Shown here: in pieces, positions 1,685-13,414 of the stretch
Position numbering within the stretch: the first letter of the stretch is position 1
How the letters are laid out: the number at the start of each line of letters is the position of its first letter
Assembly (NCBI GenBank): GCA_024278555.1
Contig: JAJRSX010000088.1
Location: forward strand, 1 to 17,174
Reading direction: 5' to 3'
DNA from: a bacterium
Lineage (GTDB): Bacteria > CG2-30-53-67 > CG2-30-70-394
DNA length: 17,174 nucleotides
Notes under the pieces: generated by a model
What the model was told of the DNA's origin: nothing
Database searches by the model: none
Seen by the model: the letters and a program-made list of their open reading frames with translations, nothing else
Position numbers and translations under genes: made by a program

Positions 1685-1718
1685 CACCACTTTGACCCTA
1701 CAGTGGTGAGCTTTTCTT
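1685..1718 (+). terminator. Possible weak terminator after SpoVR
   Basis: CACCACT (1685-1691) pairs with AGTGGTG (1702-1708) around a 10-base loop, and AGCTTTTCTT follows. It lies downstream of the SpoVR stop and overlaps the last codons of the converging regulator. The stem is short and the loop large, so efficiency is doubtful. Confidence 0.4.
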
Positions 1719-3248
1719 GCGGTAACGCGACGCCTCCAGCCCGAGCCGCTTCATCCGGCTGCGCAGGGTCGAGGGGTTGAGGCCGAGGAGGTCGGCGGCG
1801 CCGCCGGGGCCATGGATGCGGCCGTCGCAGCCGCGCACGACCCGGTCGATGTGGGCGCGTTCCACCGCCTCCAGGGTGGCCGGCGGCCCCTCTTCCACCG
1901 CCGGTGGCGGGGCGAGCTCTTCCTCCTCCACCGCCACGTGGAGCTCGGGACCACGGGCGAGGATGGTGGCGCGCTCCAAGGCGTTGACCAGCTCGCGCAC
2001 GTTGCCCGGCCACCGGTAGCGCTGGAGGCGGGCGATCTCCGCGTCGCTCACACTCCACGGGCCGGAGCCGGTGCGCCTGGCCAGCGAGGCGAGGACATCG
2101 GCGGCGATCCGCGGGATGTCGTCTTTCCGCTCGCGCAGGGGCGGCACCTCGATGGGAAAGACGTGCAGCCGGTAGTAGAGGTCCTCGCGAAAACGGCCGC
2201 CGGCCACCGCCCTGGCCAGGTCCACGTGGGTGGCGGCGATCAGCCGCACGTCGACGCGCACGGTGCGATCAGAGCCCACCGGCTCGAAGGTTCCGTCCTG
2301 GACCACCCGCAACAGCTTCGCCTGCAATCCCAGGGGGAGCTCGCCCACCTCGTCGAGGAAGAGGGTGGTGCCGTTGGCCGCCTGGAAGCGGCCCATGCGC
2401 TTGCCCGTGGCCCCGGAGAAGGCCCCCTTCACGTGGCCGAAGAGCTCCGATTCGATCAGCGTTGGCGGCAGGGCGGCACAGTTCACCGACACCATCGGCC
2501 GGCCGCCGCGCCGGCTCCAGCCGTGGATCGCGTTGGCCACCACCTCCTTGCCGCTGCCGGTCTCGCCGGTGATCAGGACCGGCGTCTCGGTGGGGGCCAC
2601 CTGCCGGGAGAGCTCCACCACCCGCTGCATCGCCGGCGAGACCGCGCGGGTGAGGAGCTGGCCGGCGTCGGCGCGACCGGCGACCGACTCGGCCAGCAGC
2701 CGGTTGTGCTCCGCCCACTGGTCACGCATCCGCCTCAGCACCGCCGACTGGTGCTCGTAGCGCATGGCGTGGGCGAGCAGCCTCCCGTAGACCCGGGCGA
2801 GCCCCAGGGGCCCCTCGCCGTACGGCCGACACACCTGCTGGTCGAAGGTGACCAGCCCCATGCGGCGGCCCTCGGCGACCAGGGGGACGACCATGCAGGC
2901 GTGGCCGTGGGGGAGGTCGAGGACGCCGTCGAAGGGGTCGCCGTCGCCGTCGGCGTGGTCGTGCTCGGTAAACAGCCGCGCCTCGCCACGGTCGATCGCC
3001 GCCCGCAGGGAGGGGAAGCGGTCGAGCTCCAGGTGGTGGCGATGCACCCGGTCGTCCGCCAACGGCCCGCGCGCCATGCGCACGGTGAGGCGATCGCCGT
3101 CCAGGAGCATCACCGTGGCGAGGTCGTAGGGGATCACCGGCCGCAGGGCGTCGAGGGCGTCGGCCAGGAGCCGGTCGGTGGAGCCGGCGGAGGTGGCCAG
3201 GTGGGCCGCCTCCTTGAGATCGGCGGTGAGGTCGAGGTCGATGGCCAT
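1698..3248 (-). CDS. NorR-type sigma-54-dependent transcriptional activator (GAF-AAA+-HTH)
   Basis: The 516-residue protein has the NorR layout. A GAF domain spans about residues 20-165. The AAA+ domain spans about 205-440, with Walker A GETGSGKE (228-235), GAFSGA (275-280, the loop that contacts sigma-54, Thr to Ser) and Walker B FLDE (297-300). A Fis-type helix-turn-helix lies at the C-terminus (GGAADLLGLNPSTLRSRMKR). In the GAF domain DPFDG (D104, D107), HAC (H116, C118) and TFD (D136) line up with E. coli NorR D96, D99, H111, C113 and D131, proposed non-haem iron ligands for NO sensing (numbering from memory). The ATG at 3248 is chosen because homology starts there and a leader module abuts it. 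The frame stays open to 3638, but that stretch has no domain and covers the divergent promoter. The stop is TAG. It probably controls the divergent peroxiredoxin. The signal could be NO or another oxidant; that part is inference. Confidence 0.9.
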   Translation of the reverse strand: MAIDLDLTADLKEAAHLATSAGSTDRLLADALDALRPVIPYDLATVMLLDGDRLTVRMARGPLADDRVHRHHLELDRFPSLRAAIDRGEARLFTEHDHADGDGDPFDGVLDLPHGHACMVVPLVAEGRRMGLVTFDQQVCRPYGEGPLGLARVYGRLLAHAMRYEHQSAVLRRMRDQWAEHNRLLAESVAGRADAGQLLTRAVSPAMQRVVELSRQVAPTETPVLITGETGSGKEVVANAIHGWSRRGGRPMVSVNCAALPPTLIESELFGHVKGAFSGATGKRMGRFQAANGTTLFLDEVGELPLGLQAKLLRVVQDGTFEPVGSDRTVRVDVRLIAATHVDLARAVAGGRFREDLYYRLHVFPIEVPPLRERKDDIPRIAADVLASLARRTGSGPWSVSDAEIARLQRYRWPGNVRELVNALERATILARGPELHVAVEEEELAPPPAVEEGPPATLEAVERAHIDRVVRGCDGRIHGPGGAADLLGLNPSTLRSRMKRLGLEASRYRKKSSPL

Positions 3249-3361: not shown

Positions 3362-3413
3362 GCGGAATACCGCAAGTTGTGAGATATCGCCACCAGCCTA
3401 CGCGAAATGTCGC
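3362..3413. promoter_or_regulatory. Three dyad sites, candidate upstream activator sequences for the NorR-type protein
   Basis: Three 12-base dyads of form GYGR-N4-YCGC lie together: GCGGAATACCGC (3362-3373), GTGAGATATCGC (3379-3390) and GCGAAATGTCGC (3402-3413). The second matches the others best in inverted orientation, and all three extend to a 14-mer GCGRWATNYCRCAA. They sit about 110-150 bases upstream of the expected start of the -24/-12 promoter, where enhancer sites of sigma-54 activators normally lie. E. coli NorR also uses three sites upstream of norV, though with a different core. The rest of the 310-base divergent region holds the leader module and the promoter. A weak AT-richer stretch near 3455-3475 might bind IHF, but I see no good consensus. 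Confidence 0.7.
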
Positions 3414-3490: not shown

Positions 3491-3507
3491 TTGGCACGCG
3501 ACCTGCA
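3491..3507 (+). promoter_or_regulatory. Sigma-54 (-24/-12) promoter of the peroxiredoxin gene
   Basis: TTGGCACG-N4-CTGCA matches the RpoN consensus TTGGCACG-N4-TTGCA at all but one base. The invariant GG (3493-3494) and GC (3505-3506) have the correct spacing. Transcription should start near 3517, giving a leader of about 42 bases before the ATG at 3559. Confidence 0.87.
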
Positions 3508-3558: not shown

Positions 3559-4158
3559 ATGGAAACCATCGTCACCAAGCCCGCCCCCGACTTCGCCGCC
3601 CAGGCGGTCATGCCCGACAACTCCTTTGCCGAGCTCAAGCTCTCCGACTACCGCGGCAAGTACACCCTCCTCTTCTTCTACCCCCTCGATTTCACCTTCG
3701 TCTGCCCGAGCGAGATCATCGCCTTCGACAAGCACCTCGCTGACTTCAAGGAGCGCGGCTGCGAGGTGATCGGCTGCTCCGTGGACAGCCACTACACCCA
3801 CCTGGCGTGGAAGAACACCCCGGTGGAAAAGGGCGGCATCGGCAACGTCCAGTACCCCCTGGTCGCCGACCTGTCGAAGCAGATCGCCCGCGACTACGGC
3901 GTCCTCTTCAACGACGCCGTCGCCCTGCGCGGCCTCTTCCTCATCGACCCCGAGGGGACCGTGCGCCACGCCCTGATCAACGACCTCCCCCTCGGTCGCT
4001 CGATCGAGGAGGCGCTGCGGATGCTCGACGCCCTCAAGTTCGTCGACACCCACGGTGAGGTCTGCCCGGCCAACTGGCACGACGGCGAGGAGGCGATGAC
4101 CCCGACCCCCGAGGGCGTCGCCGACTACCTGGCGAAGCACGCCACCCAGAACGCCTAA
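3559..4158 (+). CDS. Typical 2-Cys peroxiredoxin (AhpC/Prx1 type)
   Basis: This cytoplasmic thiol peroxidase reduces hydrogen peroxide, organic peroxides and, in this family, peroxynitrite. The 199 residues carry the peroxidatic site FTFVCPSE (C49) with the upstream YPLDF and the resolving site EVCPANW (C169), which defines the typical 2-Cys dimer-forming class. GGIGN near residue 92 resembles the GGLG motif linked to over-oxidation sensitivity, but no C-terminal YF motif is present, so the enzyme is probably robust. The ATG at 3559 is chosen because GAAGGAG lies just upstream and homology begins there. The frame stays open further upstream, but that stretch runs through the promoter. Expression should depend on sigma-54 and the divergent NorR-type activator. 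Its electron donor is not evident. The flavoprotein at 12338-13414 lacks the disulfide needed to serve as AhpF. Confidence 0.95.
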
Positions 4159-4200: not shown

Positions 4201-4236
4201 GAGGGGGCTACCATCCGGTAGCCCCCTCTCTTTTTT
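4201..4236 (+). terminator. Rho-independent terminator or attenuator between peroxiredoxin and rubrerythrin
   Basis: A perfect 12-bp stem, GAGGGGGCTACC (4201-4212) with GGTAGCCCCCTC (4217-4228), has a 4-base loop followed by TCTTTTTT. Only 38 bases separate its end from the rubrerythrin ATG, so partial read-through or a promoter before the hairpin would be needed to express that gene. Confidence 0.9.
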
Positions 4237-4274: not shown

Positions 4275-4853
4275 ATGGCCAAGCCCCTCCGCGGCACCCA
4301 GACCGAGAAGAACCTCATCACCGCCTTCGCCGGCGAGTCGCAGGCGCGCAACCGGTACACCTACTTCGCGGGCGCGGCGCGCAAGGAGGGGCTGATGCAG
4401 ATCGCCGCCATCTTCGCGGAGACGGCGGACCAGGAGAGGGAGCACGCCAAGCGGTTCTTCAAGTTCCTCGAAGGGGGCGAGGTGGAGGTGGCCGCCGCCT
4501 TCCCCGCCGGCACCATCGGCTCCACCCTGGAGAACCTCCACGCCGCCGCCGCCGGTGAGGAGCACGAGTGGACCGATATGTACCCCGGCTTCGCCAAGGT
4601 GGCGCGGGAGGAGGGGTTCGAGCAGGTGGCCAAGGCGTTCGAGGCGATCGCCATCGCCGAGAAGCAGCACCACAAGCGGTACCGGGACCTCGCCGACAAC
4701 CTGGAGGCGGGGCGGGTCTTCAAGCGCAACGGCAAGGTGGTGTGGCGGTGCCGCAACTGCGGCTACCTCCACGAGGGCGACGAGGCCCCCAAGGTCTGCC
4801 CCGCCTGCCTCCACCCCCAGTCCTACTTCGAGCTCCTCGGCGAGAACTGGTAG
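4275..4853 (+). CDS. Rubrerythrin
   Basis: This is a peroxide-reducing non-haem iron protein of anaerobes and microaerophiles. The 192 residues comprise a four-helix ferritin-like di-iron domain and a C-terminal rubredoxin domain. Seen are E21 in [12 protein letters not shown], the ExxH pair in DQEREHAKR (E54, H57), GEEHEW, and a second ExxH in AEKQHHKRY. The rubredoxin-type iron site is CRNCGY plus CPACLHP near the C-terminus. Length fits the family (about 190). AAAGGAG precedes the ATG at 4275, and the stop is TAG. It sits 116 bases after the peroxiredoxin stop with a strong terminator-like hairpin between. I infer it is co-regulated by read-through from the sigma-54 promoter, with the hairpin setting the ratio, but a separate promoter near 4159-4200 cannot be excluded. 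Confidence 0.96.
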
Positions 4854-4897: not shown

Positions 4898-4933
4898 TTG
4901 ACACGAACCTCGCGTAACACTAGGTTCGTGTCA
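4898..4933 (+). promoter_or_regulatory. Promoter/operator of the toxin-antitoxin pair, probably giving a leaderless mRNA
   Basis: TTGACA (4898-4903), 17 bases, then TAGGTT (4921-4926) forms a sigma-70-like promoter whose expected start falls on the A of the antitoxin ATG at 4933. A perfect 12-bp inverted repeat TGACACGAACCT (4899-4910) / AGGTTCGTGTCA (4922-4933) covers both promoter elements and the start codon. It is well placed for autorepression by the antitoxin or the antitoxin-toxin complex. Confidence 0.75.
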
Positions 4934-5175
4934 TGAAGAACGTCACGGTCACCCTCGACGAAGAGGTGGCGCGGTGGGCACGGATCCGGGCCGCAGAGGC
5001 GGAGACCAGCCTCTCCCGCTACCTTGGCGACCTCCTTCGCCGCCATATGGAGGAGAACGATGGATATGAGGCGGCCATGCGCGCCAACCTCGCCCGGCCA
5101 CCGGTCACGCTGAAGGAGGGCGGCGGCTATCCGAGCCGGGAGGAACGCCATGGACGGCCTCTTCTTCGTCGATAG
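4933..5175 (+). CDS. Ribbon-helix-helix antitoxin (VapB-like)
   Basis: The 80-residue protein starts MKNVTVTLDEEVARWARIRA, a beta strand followed by helices typical of ribbon-helix-helix DNA-binding antitoxins. SLSRYLGDLLRRHME completes the second helix. The remaining tail, rich in charged residues, should wrap and inhibit the toxin. It overlaps the PIN gene by 26 bases, a common antitoxin-toxin arrangement. No Shine-Dalgarno sequence precedes the ATG; instead the start codon is the expected transcription start. Neutralising the PIN toxin and repressing its own promoter through the 12-bp inverted repeat are inferred from the family. The exact antitoxin family is not certain. Confidence 0.8.
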   Translation: MKNVTVTLDEEVARWARIRAAEAETSLSRYLGDLLRRHMEENDGYEAAMRANLARPPVTLKEGGGYPSREERHGRPLLRR

Positions 5176-5596
5176 CAACCTCCTCCTCTACCGGCGTGAT
5201 GCAGGTGAGCCGGACAAGCAGCCCCGTGCGGCGGCGTGGCTCGCGGCCCTGTGGCAGACACGGCGCGGCCGGCTCAGCGTCCAGGTGGTGGAGGAGTTCT
5301 ACCACGTGGCGACCCGCCGTCTCCGTCCCGGCCTGCCACCCGCCGAAGCACAGGAAGAGGTACGCGAGCTCTTCACCTGGCAGCCGCTCCCCATCACCCC
5401 GAGCCTGATCACCGCCGCCTGGGCGGTCGAAGGCCGCTACGGCTTCTCCTTCTGGGACAGTCTGATTGTCGCCGCCACCCAGCGGACGGGGTGTCGCTAC
5501 CTCCTCACCGAGGACCTCCAGGCCGACCAAGAGCTCGATGGCGTGCGTGTCATCAACCCGTTCGACCACCCACCGGAGGCCTTCGGTCTCCGGTGA
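5150..5596 (+). CDS. PIN-domain ribonuclease toxin (VapC-like)
   Basis: The 148-residue PIN domain carries the four acidic positions expected for Mg2+-dependent RNA cleavage: D8 (FFVDSN), E48 (QVVEEF), D103 (SFWDSL) and D122 (LLTEDL). VapC toxins typically cut tRNA or a ribosomal RNA loop; the target here is unknown. GGGAGGAA lies just upstream of the ATG at 5150, inside the antitoxin gene, which supports this start and coupled translation. Length fits the family (about 130-150). All catalytic residues are intact, so the module looks functional. Its place between the peroxide genes and the phosphate genes gives no functional link. Confidence 0.9.
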   Translation: MDGLFFVDSNLLLYRRDAGEPDKQPRAAAWLAALWQTRRGRLSVQVVEEFYHVATRRLRPGLPPAEAQEEVRELFTWQPLPITPSLITAAWAVEGRYGFSFWDSLIVAATQRTGCRYLLTEDLQADQELDGVRVINPFDHPPEAFGLR

Positions 5597-5675: not shown

Positions 5676-5703
5676 CGTGACCCCGGCGTGACGCGGGTGT
5701 AAC
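5676..5703 (+). promoter_or_regulatory. Candidate PHO box (11-base direct repeats)
   Basis: CGTGAC (5676-5681), CGTGAC (5687-5692) and TGTAAC (5698-5703) recur exactly every 11 bases, the spacing used by PhoB/OmpR-family dimers. The site is 64-91 bases upstream of the PhoB-like start. The sequence is only loosely like the enteric PHO box, so the call rests on periodicity and context. Confidence 0.5.
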
Positions 5704-5711
5704 AACCGCAG

Positions 5712-5740
5712 GCGATGGTGCAACTCTGCACCGCCGTCGC
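5712..5740 (+). promoter_or_regulatory. Hairpin in the presumed phoB leader
   Basis: GGTGCA-ACTC-TGCACC (5717-5732) forms a 6-bp stem and 4-base loop. Flanking GCGA (5712-5715) and TCGC (5737-5740) can extend it across a small asymmetric interior loop. No T-run follows, so it is not an obvious terminator. It ends 26 bases before the ATG, and its role is unknown. Confidence 0.4.
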
Positions 5741-5766
5741 TTGCTTCGCCCACCCTCAACCCCCCC

Positions 5767-5955
5767 ATGGCCAAGACGATCCTCGTAGTCGACGACGAGC
5801 CCGACCTCGTGGAGGTGGTGCGCTACAACCTGGAGCAGGCCCACTACCGGGTGGTGACCGCCGCCAGCGGCTCCGCGGCGCTGCGCCGGGCGCGCAGGGA
5901 GGCCCCGGACCTGATCGTCCTCGACATCATGCTCCCGGACCTCTTCGGCACCTAG
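5767..5955 (+). CDS. phoB: PhoB-like response regulator, N-terminal receiver part, cut by an in-frame TAG
   Basis: Residues 1-62 give the first half of a CheY-like receiver: VVDDEP (D9, D10) and the phospho-acceptor in VLDIMLPD (D53). The TAG at 5953-5955 stops translation where this family usually has Glu, as in LPDLDGxEVCR. The same frame then continues without a break to 6462. Joined, the two parts make 231 residues, the usual PhoB length (229 in E. coli). A single G-to-T change (GAG to TAG) explains the break. Phe60 is also unusual where Asp is common. TAG ends four other reading frames here, so reassignment is unlikely. This is either a pseudogene in formation, a strain mutation or a sequencing or assembly error. 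The fragment alone cannot fold as a full receiver or bind DNA. The ATG at 5767 has no clear ribosome binding site. Confidence 0.85.
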   Translation: MAKTILVVDDEPDLVEVVRYNLEQAHYRVVTAASGSAALRRARREAPDLIVLDIMLPDLFGT

Positions 5956-6462
5956 GTGTGTCGCACCCTGCGCGGCGATCCGCGCACCCGCGCCGTCCCC
6001 ATCCTCTTTCTCTCCGCCAAGAGCGAGGAGGTGGACCGGGTCGTGGGGCTGGAGCTCGGCGCCGACGACTACCTCACCAAGCCGTTCTCGCCGCGCGAGC
6101 TGGTCCTGCGGGTCGGGGCGATCCTCCGTCGCACCGCCGCCGGCGACGCCGCCAACACCGGGTCGGTAGTGGCCTCCGGGTCGATCCGCCTCGACCCGGA
6201 GGCGCACCAGGTGTGGGTGGCGGGGGCGGAGGTCGACCTCACCGCCACCGAGTTCCGCCTCTTAGAGACGCTCCTGCGCCACCCCGGCCGGGTCTTCTCC
6301 CGCGACCAGCTGCTCGACCGGGTGTGGGGGATCACCGCCGAGGTCACCACCCGCACCGTCGACACCCACATCAACCGCCTGCGCGACCGCCTCGGGCCGC
6401 AGGCCGAGCAGGTGGAGACAGTGCGCGGCGTCGGCTACCGCCTGCGTACGAAGGAGGGGTAG
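5956..6462 (+). CDS. phoB: PhoB-like response regulator, C-terminal part (rest of receiver + winged-helix DNA-binding domain)
   Basis: This continues the receiver in the same frame immediately after the TAG. It carries the conserved switch segment FLSAKSEE and the Lys of DDYLTKPFSPREL. An OmpR/PhoB winged helix follows (TEFRLLETLL, RVFSRDQLLDRVW, RTVDTHINRLRDRL, VRGVGYRLR). The first codon after the stop is GTG, so termination-coupled reinitiation could yield a 168-residue protein with an intact DNA-binding domain but no phospho-acceptor. No Shine-Dalgarno sequence precedes that GTG. The gene ends in TAG, overlapping the GTG start of the kinase by one base, so the two are translationally coupled. 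As a whole it would bind PHO boxes and activate phosphate-starvation genes. Confidence 0.85.
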   Translation: MCRTLRGDPRTRAVPILFLSAKSEEVDRVVGLELGADDYLTKPFSPRELVLRVGAILRRTAAGDAANTGSVVASGSIRLDPEAHQVWVAGAEVDLTATEFRLLETLLRHPGRVFSRDQLLDRVWGITAEVTTRTVDTHINRLRDRLGPQAEQVETVRGVGYRLRTKEG

Positions 6463-11186: not shown

Positions 11187-12056
11187 TCAGATCACCAACC
11201 GGTCCACCAGCTCCCGGAAGTGCTCGTCGGCACCGATGAAGGCGGCGACCACGACCGGGTCGTAGAGGCGGCACACCCCCTTGGCGATGATCGCCTGTGC
11301 CTCGTCGAAGGAGAGGGCCTTGCGGTAGGGGCGGTCGACGGTGAGGGCGTCGAGGGCGTCGCACACCGCGAAGATCCGCGCCCCCAGGGGGATGTCCCGC
11401 CCCTTCAGCCTCTGCGGGTAGCCCGAGCCGTCGTAGTGCTCGTGGTGGCCGTAGACGATGTCCACCGCCCCGGCGAGCTCGTGGACGTTGTGGAGAATGT
11501 GGCGGCCGATCTCCGGGTGGCCCCGCATCACCTCCCACTCCTCCGGGGAGAGCTTGCCCTCCTTGAGGAGGATGGCGTCGGGGATGCCGATCTTCCCGAG
11601 GTCGTGGAGCAGCGCCCCGCAGTAGATGGAGACCAGCGGCCGGCCTGTGATGTGCATCTGGTGGGCGAGGACGGTGGCGAACTGGGCGACCCGGTAGGAG
11701 TGGTCGCCCACCTCGTGCTCGCGGGCATCCAGTGACGCGACGAACGCCTCCACCATCGCCAGGTACGGCCCCTCGATGCCCTTCAGGGCGTCGCCCAGGT
11801 AGCGGTCGCGAAAGGCACACCGCTCGCAGCAGTAGGGGCCGCGGCCGTCGCGGTAAAGGCCGTCGGCGACCCGGTTGGTGCAGGCGATACAGGCCACCGT
11901 GTCGGTCACCTCGGGGGCCAGGTAGCGCTCCGGCGCCCCCTGAAAGAGCTCGCGGCAGCCGGTGGAGCAGAAGTAGTAGGTGGTGCCGCGGAAGTCGACG
12001 GAGAGGGCGTGGCGCTCCTCATCCACCTCCATGTGGCACACAGGGTCGGTAGTCAT
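11187..12056 (-). CDS. YHS/TRASH - zinc ribbon - HD-GYP fusion protein (putative c-di-GMP phosphodiesterase)
   Basis: The 289-residue cytoplasmic protein has three parts. Residues 1-47 are a YHS/TRASH metal-binding module: DPVCHMEV (C7) and YYFCSTGC (C30, C34). Residues 55-81 are a small zinc ribbon with CIAC (C56, C59) and CERC (C77, C80). Residues about 97-285 are an HD-GYP domain with HDLGKIGIP (H151, D152), GHPEIGRHIL (H180) and HHEHYDGSGYP (204-214), complete for the metal site and the GYP signature that distinguish c-di-GMP phosphodiesterases. By inference, metal binding to the N-terminal modules would tune c-di-GMP breakdown. ATG 12056 is preceded by the leader module, not a ribosome binding site. 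It follows the YHS-flavoprotein gene on the same strand, 281 bases away; that gap holds a palindrome and the module. The stop lies 12 bases from the other palindrome. Confidence 0.88.
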   Translation of the reverse strand: MTTDPVCHMEVDEERHALSVDFRGTTYYFCSTGCRELFQGAPERYLAPEVTDTVACIACTNRVADGLYRDGRGPYCCERCAFRDRYLGDALKGIEGPYLAMVEAFVASLDAREHEVGDHSYRVAQFATVLAHQMHITGRPLVSIYCGALLHDLGKIGIPDAILLKEGKLSPEEWEVMRGHPEIGRHILHNVHELAGAVDIVYGHHEHYDGSGYPQRLKGRDIPLGARIFAVCDALDALTVDRPYRKALSFDEAQAIIAKGVCRLYDPVVVAAFIGADEHFRELVDRLVI

Positions 12057-12337: not shown

Positions 12338-13414
12338 TCACCTCCGCGCCTTGGCCTCGCGACGGAGCTGGAGGATGTGCTGGCGCGCCGCCAGGGCCGC
12401 CTTGGCCCCCTCACCGCTGGCGATGATGATCCGTTTGCCGAAGGCGTCGGTGCAGTCACCGGCGGCGAAGATGCCGGGCTGGGTGGTGGCGCAGTCGCCG
12501 CCGATACGGATCTCGCCGCGATCGTTGGTCTCCACCAGCTCCATCACCAGGCCGGTGTTGGGCTTGAAGCCGATGGCGATGAAGGCGCCCTCGGCCGGAA
12601 GCTCGCGTACCTCGTTGGTGCCGATGCGCCGCATGGTGATTCCGCGTAGCCCGTCGTCGCCGTGAAAAGCGGTCACCTTGTGCCCCTCGTAAAGGGTCAC
12701 CCGCGCCTGGCGGCGAACCCGCCCGACGATGGTGGCGTCGCCGGTGAGCTCGGTGTCGGAGATCAGGGCGATGGCGGCGGCGACACGGTCGAGGCTCTCC
12801 ACCATCTGCAACGCCGAGTTGCCGCCGCCGATCACTACCACCGCCTTGTCCTGAACGAAGGCGAGGTCCTGGACGTTGCCGTAGAAGATGCCGCGGCGCT
12901 GGAGCTGCTCCTCCCCCTCCACGCCGAGACGCCGCCGGGTCATGCCGGTGGCGAGGAGGATGGTGCGGCTGGTGAACCGCTCGATCTCCGCGGTGGTGAT
13001 CGCAAAGCCGCCGTCGATCGCCTCGATCCGCTCCACCTCGCTGATCAGGTGCTCCACGTAGTGGGAGTGGAGGAGCTGGTCACGGAATTTTTCTACCAGC
13101 TCGGGGCCGGTGATGAAGTCGAACCCCATGTAGTTCTCGATCTTGCGACTGTCGATCGCCTGGCCGCCGAGGTCGCGGGTGATGAGCAGGACGTCCATCT
13201 TCAAGGTGGCGGCGTAGACCGCGGCGGTGAGGCCGGCTGGGCCGCCGCCGATGATCACCAGGTCGTAGGCGGTGCGGGTGAGGCGAGCTCCCTCGTCGGT
13301 GAGGAAGCGGTCCTTGCACCCCTCGGAACAGAAATAGACCGTCGCGCCGTCGGCCTCGGTGGTGAGGGCACTCGCTTCGTCTACCTCCATGCGGCAGATA
13401 GGGTCGATCTTCAT
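12338..13414 (-). CDS. YHS domain fused to a thioredoxin-reductase-like flavoprotein lacking the CxxC
   Basis: The 358 residues join a YHS/TRASH module (1-45: DPICRMEV with C7, YFCSEGC with C29 and C33) to a two-Rossmann pyridine nucleotide-disulfide oxidoreductase. The FAD-binding part has GGGPAGLTAAVYAA (56-69) and, near the C-terminus, IFAAGDC. The NAD(P)H part has VVIGGGNSALQ (193-203). In thioredoxin reductase the active CxxC stands just before the second Rossmann motif. Here that place reads GIFYGNVQDLAF (175-186) with no cysteine, so it should not reduce thioredoxin in the usual way. Electrons might go to the YHS metal or thiols, or to an external partner; this is inference. ATG 13414 follows the leader module. 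The upstream Met-rich lipoprotein gene ends 74 bases away on the same strand. Annotation pipelines would probably call it thioredoxin reductase. Confidence 0.9.
   Translation of the reverse strand: MKIDPICRMEVDEASALTTEADGATVYFCSEGCKDRFLTDEGARLTRTAYDLVIIGGGPAGLTAAVYAATLKMDVLLITRDLGGQAIDSRKIENYMGFDFITGPELVEKFRDQLLHSHYVEHLISEVERIEAIDGGFAITTAEIERFTSRTILLATGMTRRRLGVEGEEQLQRRGIFYGNVQDLAFVQDKAVVVIGGGNSALQMVESLDRVAAAIALISDTELTGDATIVGRVRRQARVTLYEGHKVTAFHGDDGLRGITMRRIGTNEVRELPAEGAFIAIGFKPNTGLVMELVETNDRGEIRIGGDCATTQPGIFAAGDCTDAFGKRIIIASGEGAKAALAARQHILQLRREAKARR

Follow-up and report, generated by a model that had tools for sequence, protein, structure and literature searches.

In a review of bacterial H2O2 responses, OxyR and PerR are covered and NorR is named only as an NO sensor (PMC8115020). 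OxyR, a thiol-based H2O2 activator of the LysR family, works at sigma70 promoters, and PerR, an Fe-based H2O2 sensor of the Fur family, is a repressor whose targets include peroxidases, Dps and catalase. The enhancers of NorR are three GT-N7-AC repeats (PMC1274295), and its residue Arg75 is the postulated sixth iron ligand, Tyr98 and Arg81 having also been named (PMC2941729). In part of a 2025 survey of sigma54 regulons, peroxiredoxin COG0450 appears among the sigma54 targets of Proteobacteria, with no sigma54 or NorR-like regulator dedicated to peroxide genes described alongside it (PMC12316311). A search of the open-access literature likewise found no such regulator, which is weak evidence of novelty.

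The locus analysed here lies in a window of 17,174 nucleotides (assembly GCA_024278555.1, contig JAJRSX010000088.1) and centres on a gene for a sigma54-dependent regulator of 516 aa (1698-3248, minus strand). Pfam identified Sigma54_activat (4.9e-68), GAF_3 (6.4e-10) and HTH_8 (5.6e-5) in the protein, giving the order GAF, AAA+, HTH_8. Its sensor domain (residues 25-162, 2763-3176, minus strand) was confirmed as a GAF fold by structure prediction, the AlphaFold2 model having a mean pLDDT of 82.6 and a pTM of 0.76 and its Foldseek matches being GAF domains such as 3eea; a sequence search of the PDB with the same domain gave no relative. The locus has in common with NorR this domain order, five iron-ligand positions, a divergent target, a sigma54 promoter and three tandem enhancer-like sites. 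The family to which the regulator belongs differs from NorR in its clade, in the loss of Arg75, in an extra Cys140 and His98, in its HTH sequence, which by eye looks nearer that of FhlA, and in a shorter loop between the DPxDG and HxC motifs; it also combines the palindrome CACCGAAATTTCGGTG with peroxide targets, whereas NorR combines GT-N7-AC with NO targets. The domain architecture and AAA+ motor are common to NifA, FhlA and other GAF sigma54 activators, which lack the iron-ligand set, as checked in one of them (L002). The regulator would resemble PerR in the mononuclear-iron oxidation sensing proposed here and in its targets, but PerR has an unrelated fold and represses; Pfam found only GAF, AAA+ and HTH_8 in the regulator, and no Fur fold. 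Similarly, it would resemble OxyR as an activator of peroxide genes, possibly with a cysteine pair taking part, but OxyR is of unrelated fold, and neither a LysR-type HTH nor a LysR-type substrate-binding domain was found in the regulator by Pfam. One Fur-family protein was found in the window's genome, and a query with E. coli OxyR returned an empty answer there, which is weak evidence of its absence.

Relatives of the regulator were present in four bacterial phyla. A scan of named genomes placed them in Nitrospirae bacterium CG2_30_70_394 (hereafter the sister genome), Geothrix rubra, other Holophagaceae and Planctomycetota, with a further relative in a metagenome-assembled genome titled Proteobacteria bacterium. 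Family members occurred in at least 44 of 377 genomes sampled from the phylum of that last genome, and in at least 4 of 396 and at least 17 of 392 genomes in samples of the relatives' other phyla, all of these being minimum counts, as scoring was confined to the eight best candidates of each genome. The 82 loci collected gave 75 distinct family members, 70 of which were aligned. For comparison, 11 NorRs were used, namely E. coli NorR and ten plasmid-borne NorRs gathered with it as query; the same kind of plasmid search with the regulator's GAF domain gave no match. A maximum-likelihood tree grouped 68 relatives of the regulator in one clade and the NorRs in another, each with a support of 99, while two divergent members (L142 and L159) fell outside the 68-member clade. 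The best NCBIfam model for the regulator was nonetheless NorR, at 376.3 bits, below the curated cut-off of 476. Judged by its sequence, then, the regulator is not NorR but part of a distinct clade with strong support. The preliminary description of the locus had tentatively placed it in a NorR circuit, a view abandoned here in light of its position outside the NorR clade, its score below the NorR cut-off and its loss of Arg75.

The divergent neighbours had been described as a peroxiredoxin and a rubrerythrin, and domain searches bore this out: prx (3559-4158, plus strand) encodes an AhpC/TSA-type peroxiredoxin (Pfam AhpC-TSA 4.5e-39, 1-cysPrx_C 1.2e-12) and rbr (4275-4853, plus strand) a rubrerythrin (NCBIfam RuberyRbr, 307 bits against a cut-off of 200). 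Across the family, a gene for a peroxiredoxin, rubrerythrin, catalase, KatG, cytochrome c peroxidase or Dps lay within 3 kb in 56 of the 75 loci, as opposed to none of 40 loci of other sigma54 activators from the same genomes, searched with the same probes, and none of the 11 NorR loci; the family loci share descent, so a Fisher test on these counts overstates their independence. The catalase, KatG, cytochrome c peroxidase and Dps probes were themselves taken from family loci. A stricter count, with the window's own peroxiredoxin and rubrerythrin as sole probes, still gave a match at 33 of the 71 loci that come from other genera than the window's, and again 0/40 and 0/11 among the two sets of controls. 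The remaining 19 of the 75 loci had no peroxide gene within reach, some of them lying at contig ends. At 44 loci the peroxide gene was the divergent neighbour, within 600 bp: peroxiredoxin (17), rubrerythrin (12), cytochrome c peroxidase (4), Dps (3), and two each of peroxiredoxin-glutaredoxin, catalase, KatG and a cytochrome c peroxidase-like protein. Pfam confirmed the main partner kinds in representatives (AhpC-type peroxiredoxin, peroxiredoxin-glutaredoxin, rubrerythrin, catalase, KatG, CCP_MauG and Dps); the cytochrome c peroxidase-like genes belonged to no Pfam family (L025 tested), their reference protein having two CxxCH haem motifs. A second family member in the sister genome, lying on two contigs whose overlap falls within the gene, was also divergent from such a cytochrome c peroxidase-like gene. 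At least 16 changes of partner were counted on the family tree, indicating that partners were swapped repeatedly and yet remained peroxide enzymes.

Alignment with E. coli NorR placed D104, D107, H116, C118 and D136 of the regulator (codons at 2937-2939, 2928-2930, 2901-2903, 2895-2897 and 2841-2843, together spanning 2841-2939 on the minus strand) opposite the NorR ligands D96, D99, H111, C113 and D131. These five residues had been singled out in the preliminary description as counterparts of the NorR ligands, with an alignment of the two GAF domains named as the check, and all five indeed fall on ligand positions. D104, G115, H116, C118, D136 and C140 were invariant in all 70 aligned family members, the regulator included, and D107 was kept in 63, with His or Ala in the other seven. 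Given this conservation, and with all five ligand positions invariant in 11/11 NorRs, the match between the regulator and NorR is not due to chance. A NorR-type iron site coupled to peroxide enzymes is thus strongly supported for the regulator, and the coupling is, on these comparisons, a property of the family as a whole. Two further residues set the family's sensor domain apart: Cys140 (codon 2829-2831, minus strand), which is never Cys in the 11 NorRs, and His98 (codon 2955-2957, minus strand), kept in 68 of 70 members. The AlphaFold2 model pairs strands 118-125 and 128-136 in a hairpin that, from its strand register, would put C118 opposite D136 with H116 and C140 nearby. The reading that we favour, with a probability of roughly 0.7, is that the regulator, as a sigma54 activator, detects peroxide through this NorR-type iron site, probably with the involvement of Cys118 and Cys140. 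The two cysteines could instead constitute a thiol switch, H2O2 making a Cys118-Cys140 disulfide and the metal being absent or structural only, as might be expected from their full conservation and from the restriction of Cys140 to the family; this is unlikely, however, as D104, H116 and D136 show the same invariance and would be needless for a thiol switch alone.

The NorR residues Arg75, Tyr98 and Arg81 were replaced in the regulator by Ser80 (codon 3009-3011, minus strand), Phe106 and Asp86, respectively. The Arg75 position was occupied by HPR in 11/11 NorRs, and Arg was lost from it in 68 of 70 family members, 54 of which had Ser or Thr. The two members that keep Arg (L132 and L142) both have peroxide partners, and the loss of Arg75 is consequently no strict marker of the signal.

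The DNA between the regulator and its partner also separated the family from NorR. Motif discovery in the family's intergenic regions yielded the palindrome CACCGAAATTTCGGTG, apparently a previously undescribed family motif, at 128 sites compared with 2.3 in shuffled sequence. Three or more copies were present in 29 regions, and the steps between copies were concentrated at 16-19 and 22-24 bp, often as three copies 16-24 bp apart. Seven NorR regions were scanned and contained GT-N7-AC two to five times each, with the family motif absent. Conversely, neither TGT-N7-ACA nor GATGT-N7-ACATC was found in the window's intergenic region, and TGT-N7-ACA occurred in one of 73 family regions. The window has three tandem palindromic enhancer-like sites (3363-3412; shuffle p 0.001) with cores CGGAATACCG (3363-3372), TGAGATATCG (3380-3389) and CGAAATGTCG (3403-3412), whose steps of 17 and 23 bp follow the spacing of the family peak; the sister genome also has three cores, with steps of 23 and 17 bp. 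The palindromes of both genomes have variant flanks relative to the family consensus and score below the threshold of the family matrix, and because those of the window vary in this way, a search of the whole genome for the tandem-site pattern found nothing. A sigma54 -24/-12 promoter, TGGCACGCGACCTGCA (3492-3507, plus strand), lies upstream of prx and scored 21.5 of 22.5, a value reached in 0 of 100 shuffles. Such an element faced the partner gene in 38 of 73 family loci (shuffle p ≤ 0.02), with almost none directed towards the regulator.

Peroxiredoxin and rubrerythrin are also able to reduce peroxynitrite, and the five NorR ligand positions are conserved, so that the regulator could in principle sense NO, as NorR does, and drive the peroxide enzymes to remove peroxynitrite, or be a joint sensor of NO and peroxide, as the preliminary description had suggested. 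This reading is improbable on several grounds. Homologues of NorB, NorV, NorW, NorC, Hmp, YtfE and NnrS were found near 0 of the 75 family loci, in contrast to the NO genes found by tblastn at all 11 NorR loci, that of E. coli included; the annotated plasmid-borne NorRs adjoin norB, ytfE, hmp or NnrS. The family's partners extend to catalase, KatG, cytochrome c peroxidase and Dps, Arg75 is almost always lost, NorR-type GT-N7-AC sites were absent from the windows scanned, and the regulator lies outside the NorR clade. Moreover, the window's genome has norC and a COX1-family, NorB-type gene divergent from another GAF sigma54 activator (L002, L205; contig C173), next to which a multihaem cytochrome gene is also found. 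That activator, which has no equivalents of D96, H111, C113 and D131, is a separate candidate for regulating the nor genes, possibly a different kind of NO regulator. The earlier proposal of NorR-like ligands in a peroxide-coupled regulator accordingly survives as to the ligands and the coupling, and is not supported as to a role in NO or peroxynitrite detoxification; by gene content, the common denominator of the family's partners is H2O2 and not NO. A sensor of O2 or iron status, whose site would respond to free Fe(II) or O2 and which would control O2-exposure genes, is just as improbable, for although iron handling links the rubrerythrin, Dps and ferritin-like partners, what catalase, KatG, peroxiredoxin and peroxiredoxin-glutaredoxin have in common is H2O2.

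It is thus peroxide, and not NO, that the regulator probably senses, which would make it a kind of peroxide sensor not recognised before. Iron binding, H2O2 as the signal, its chemistry and a repression-relief logic are what we infer for the regulator. By analogy with NorR, a mononuclear iron held in the GAF domain by D104, D107, H116, C118 and D136 would keep the AAA+ motor off in resting cells. H2O2 would react at the iron, at the Cys118/Cys140 pair or at both, and the altered site would free the AAA+ domain, which, positioned on the three tandem palindromes, would open the sigma54 promoter of the divergent prx, with rbr made by read-through beyond it. We would put at about even odds the broader proposition that, next to OxyR and PerR, bacteria have in these proteins another class of H2O2 sensor, made up of multi-phylum sigma54 activators in which a NorR iron site was re-tuned from NO to H2O2 by the loss of Arg75 and the gain of Cys140, with an enhancer motif of their own and a regulon of peroxiredoxin, rubrerythrin, catalase, KatG, cytochrome c peroxidase and Dps. 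If true, Geothrix, large-genome bacteria and other carriers would gain a described route for sensing H2O2, the tuning of one iron site between NO and H2O2 would be shown, and the contrast of Arg75 with Ser/Thr plus Cys140 would offer a natural comparison open to mutation.

The expression of rbr is likely to be less direct than that of prx. A strong intrinsic terminator with a 12-bp stem and a T tract (4201-4228, plus strand) occupies the gap between the two genes and is kept in the sister genome (L014). As rbr starts 46 bp past this stem, it is probably expressed at a lower level through read-through, and a plain prx-rbr operon read as a single transcript was considered and has to be qualified. 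Beside rbr, a small ORF is followed by a gene for a PIN-domain protein (Pfam) in a layout like that of VapBC toxin-antitoxin systems (4933-5596, plus strand).

Several other gene arrangements were observed among the family loci and in the window. At two loci from different phyla, rubrerythrin was followed by a CCG-domain (GlpC-like) Fe-S protein (L016, 3678-5195; L018, 3788-5188; Pfam CCG confirmed in L016), perhaps its electron donor. A pyridine-nucleotide disulfide reductase, perhaps the reductase of peroxiredoxin-glutaredoxin, was encoded between the regulator and the peroxiredoxin-glutaredoxin gene at four loci (L113, L104, L120 and L122). At two more (L145 and L146), the divergent neighbour encoded an undescribed ferritin-like protein of 147 aa without a Pfam match, with rubrerythrin further on. 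Elsewhere in the window, a gene for a PhoB-like response regulator (5700-6462, plus strand), with a sensor-kinase-like frame and phoU downstream of it, carries an in-frame TAG at 5953-5955 and otherwise matches PhoB, the interruption being either a pseudogene or an assembly error. Two tandem YHS-domain fusions were also seen on the minus strand, one resembling a YHS-HD_5 phosphodiesterase (11187-12056) and the other a YHS-thioredoxin reductase (12338-13414).
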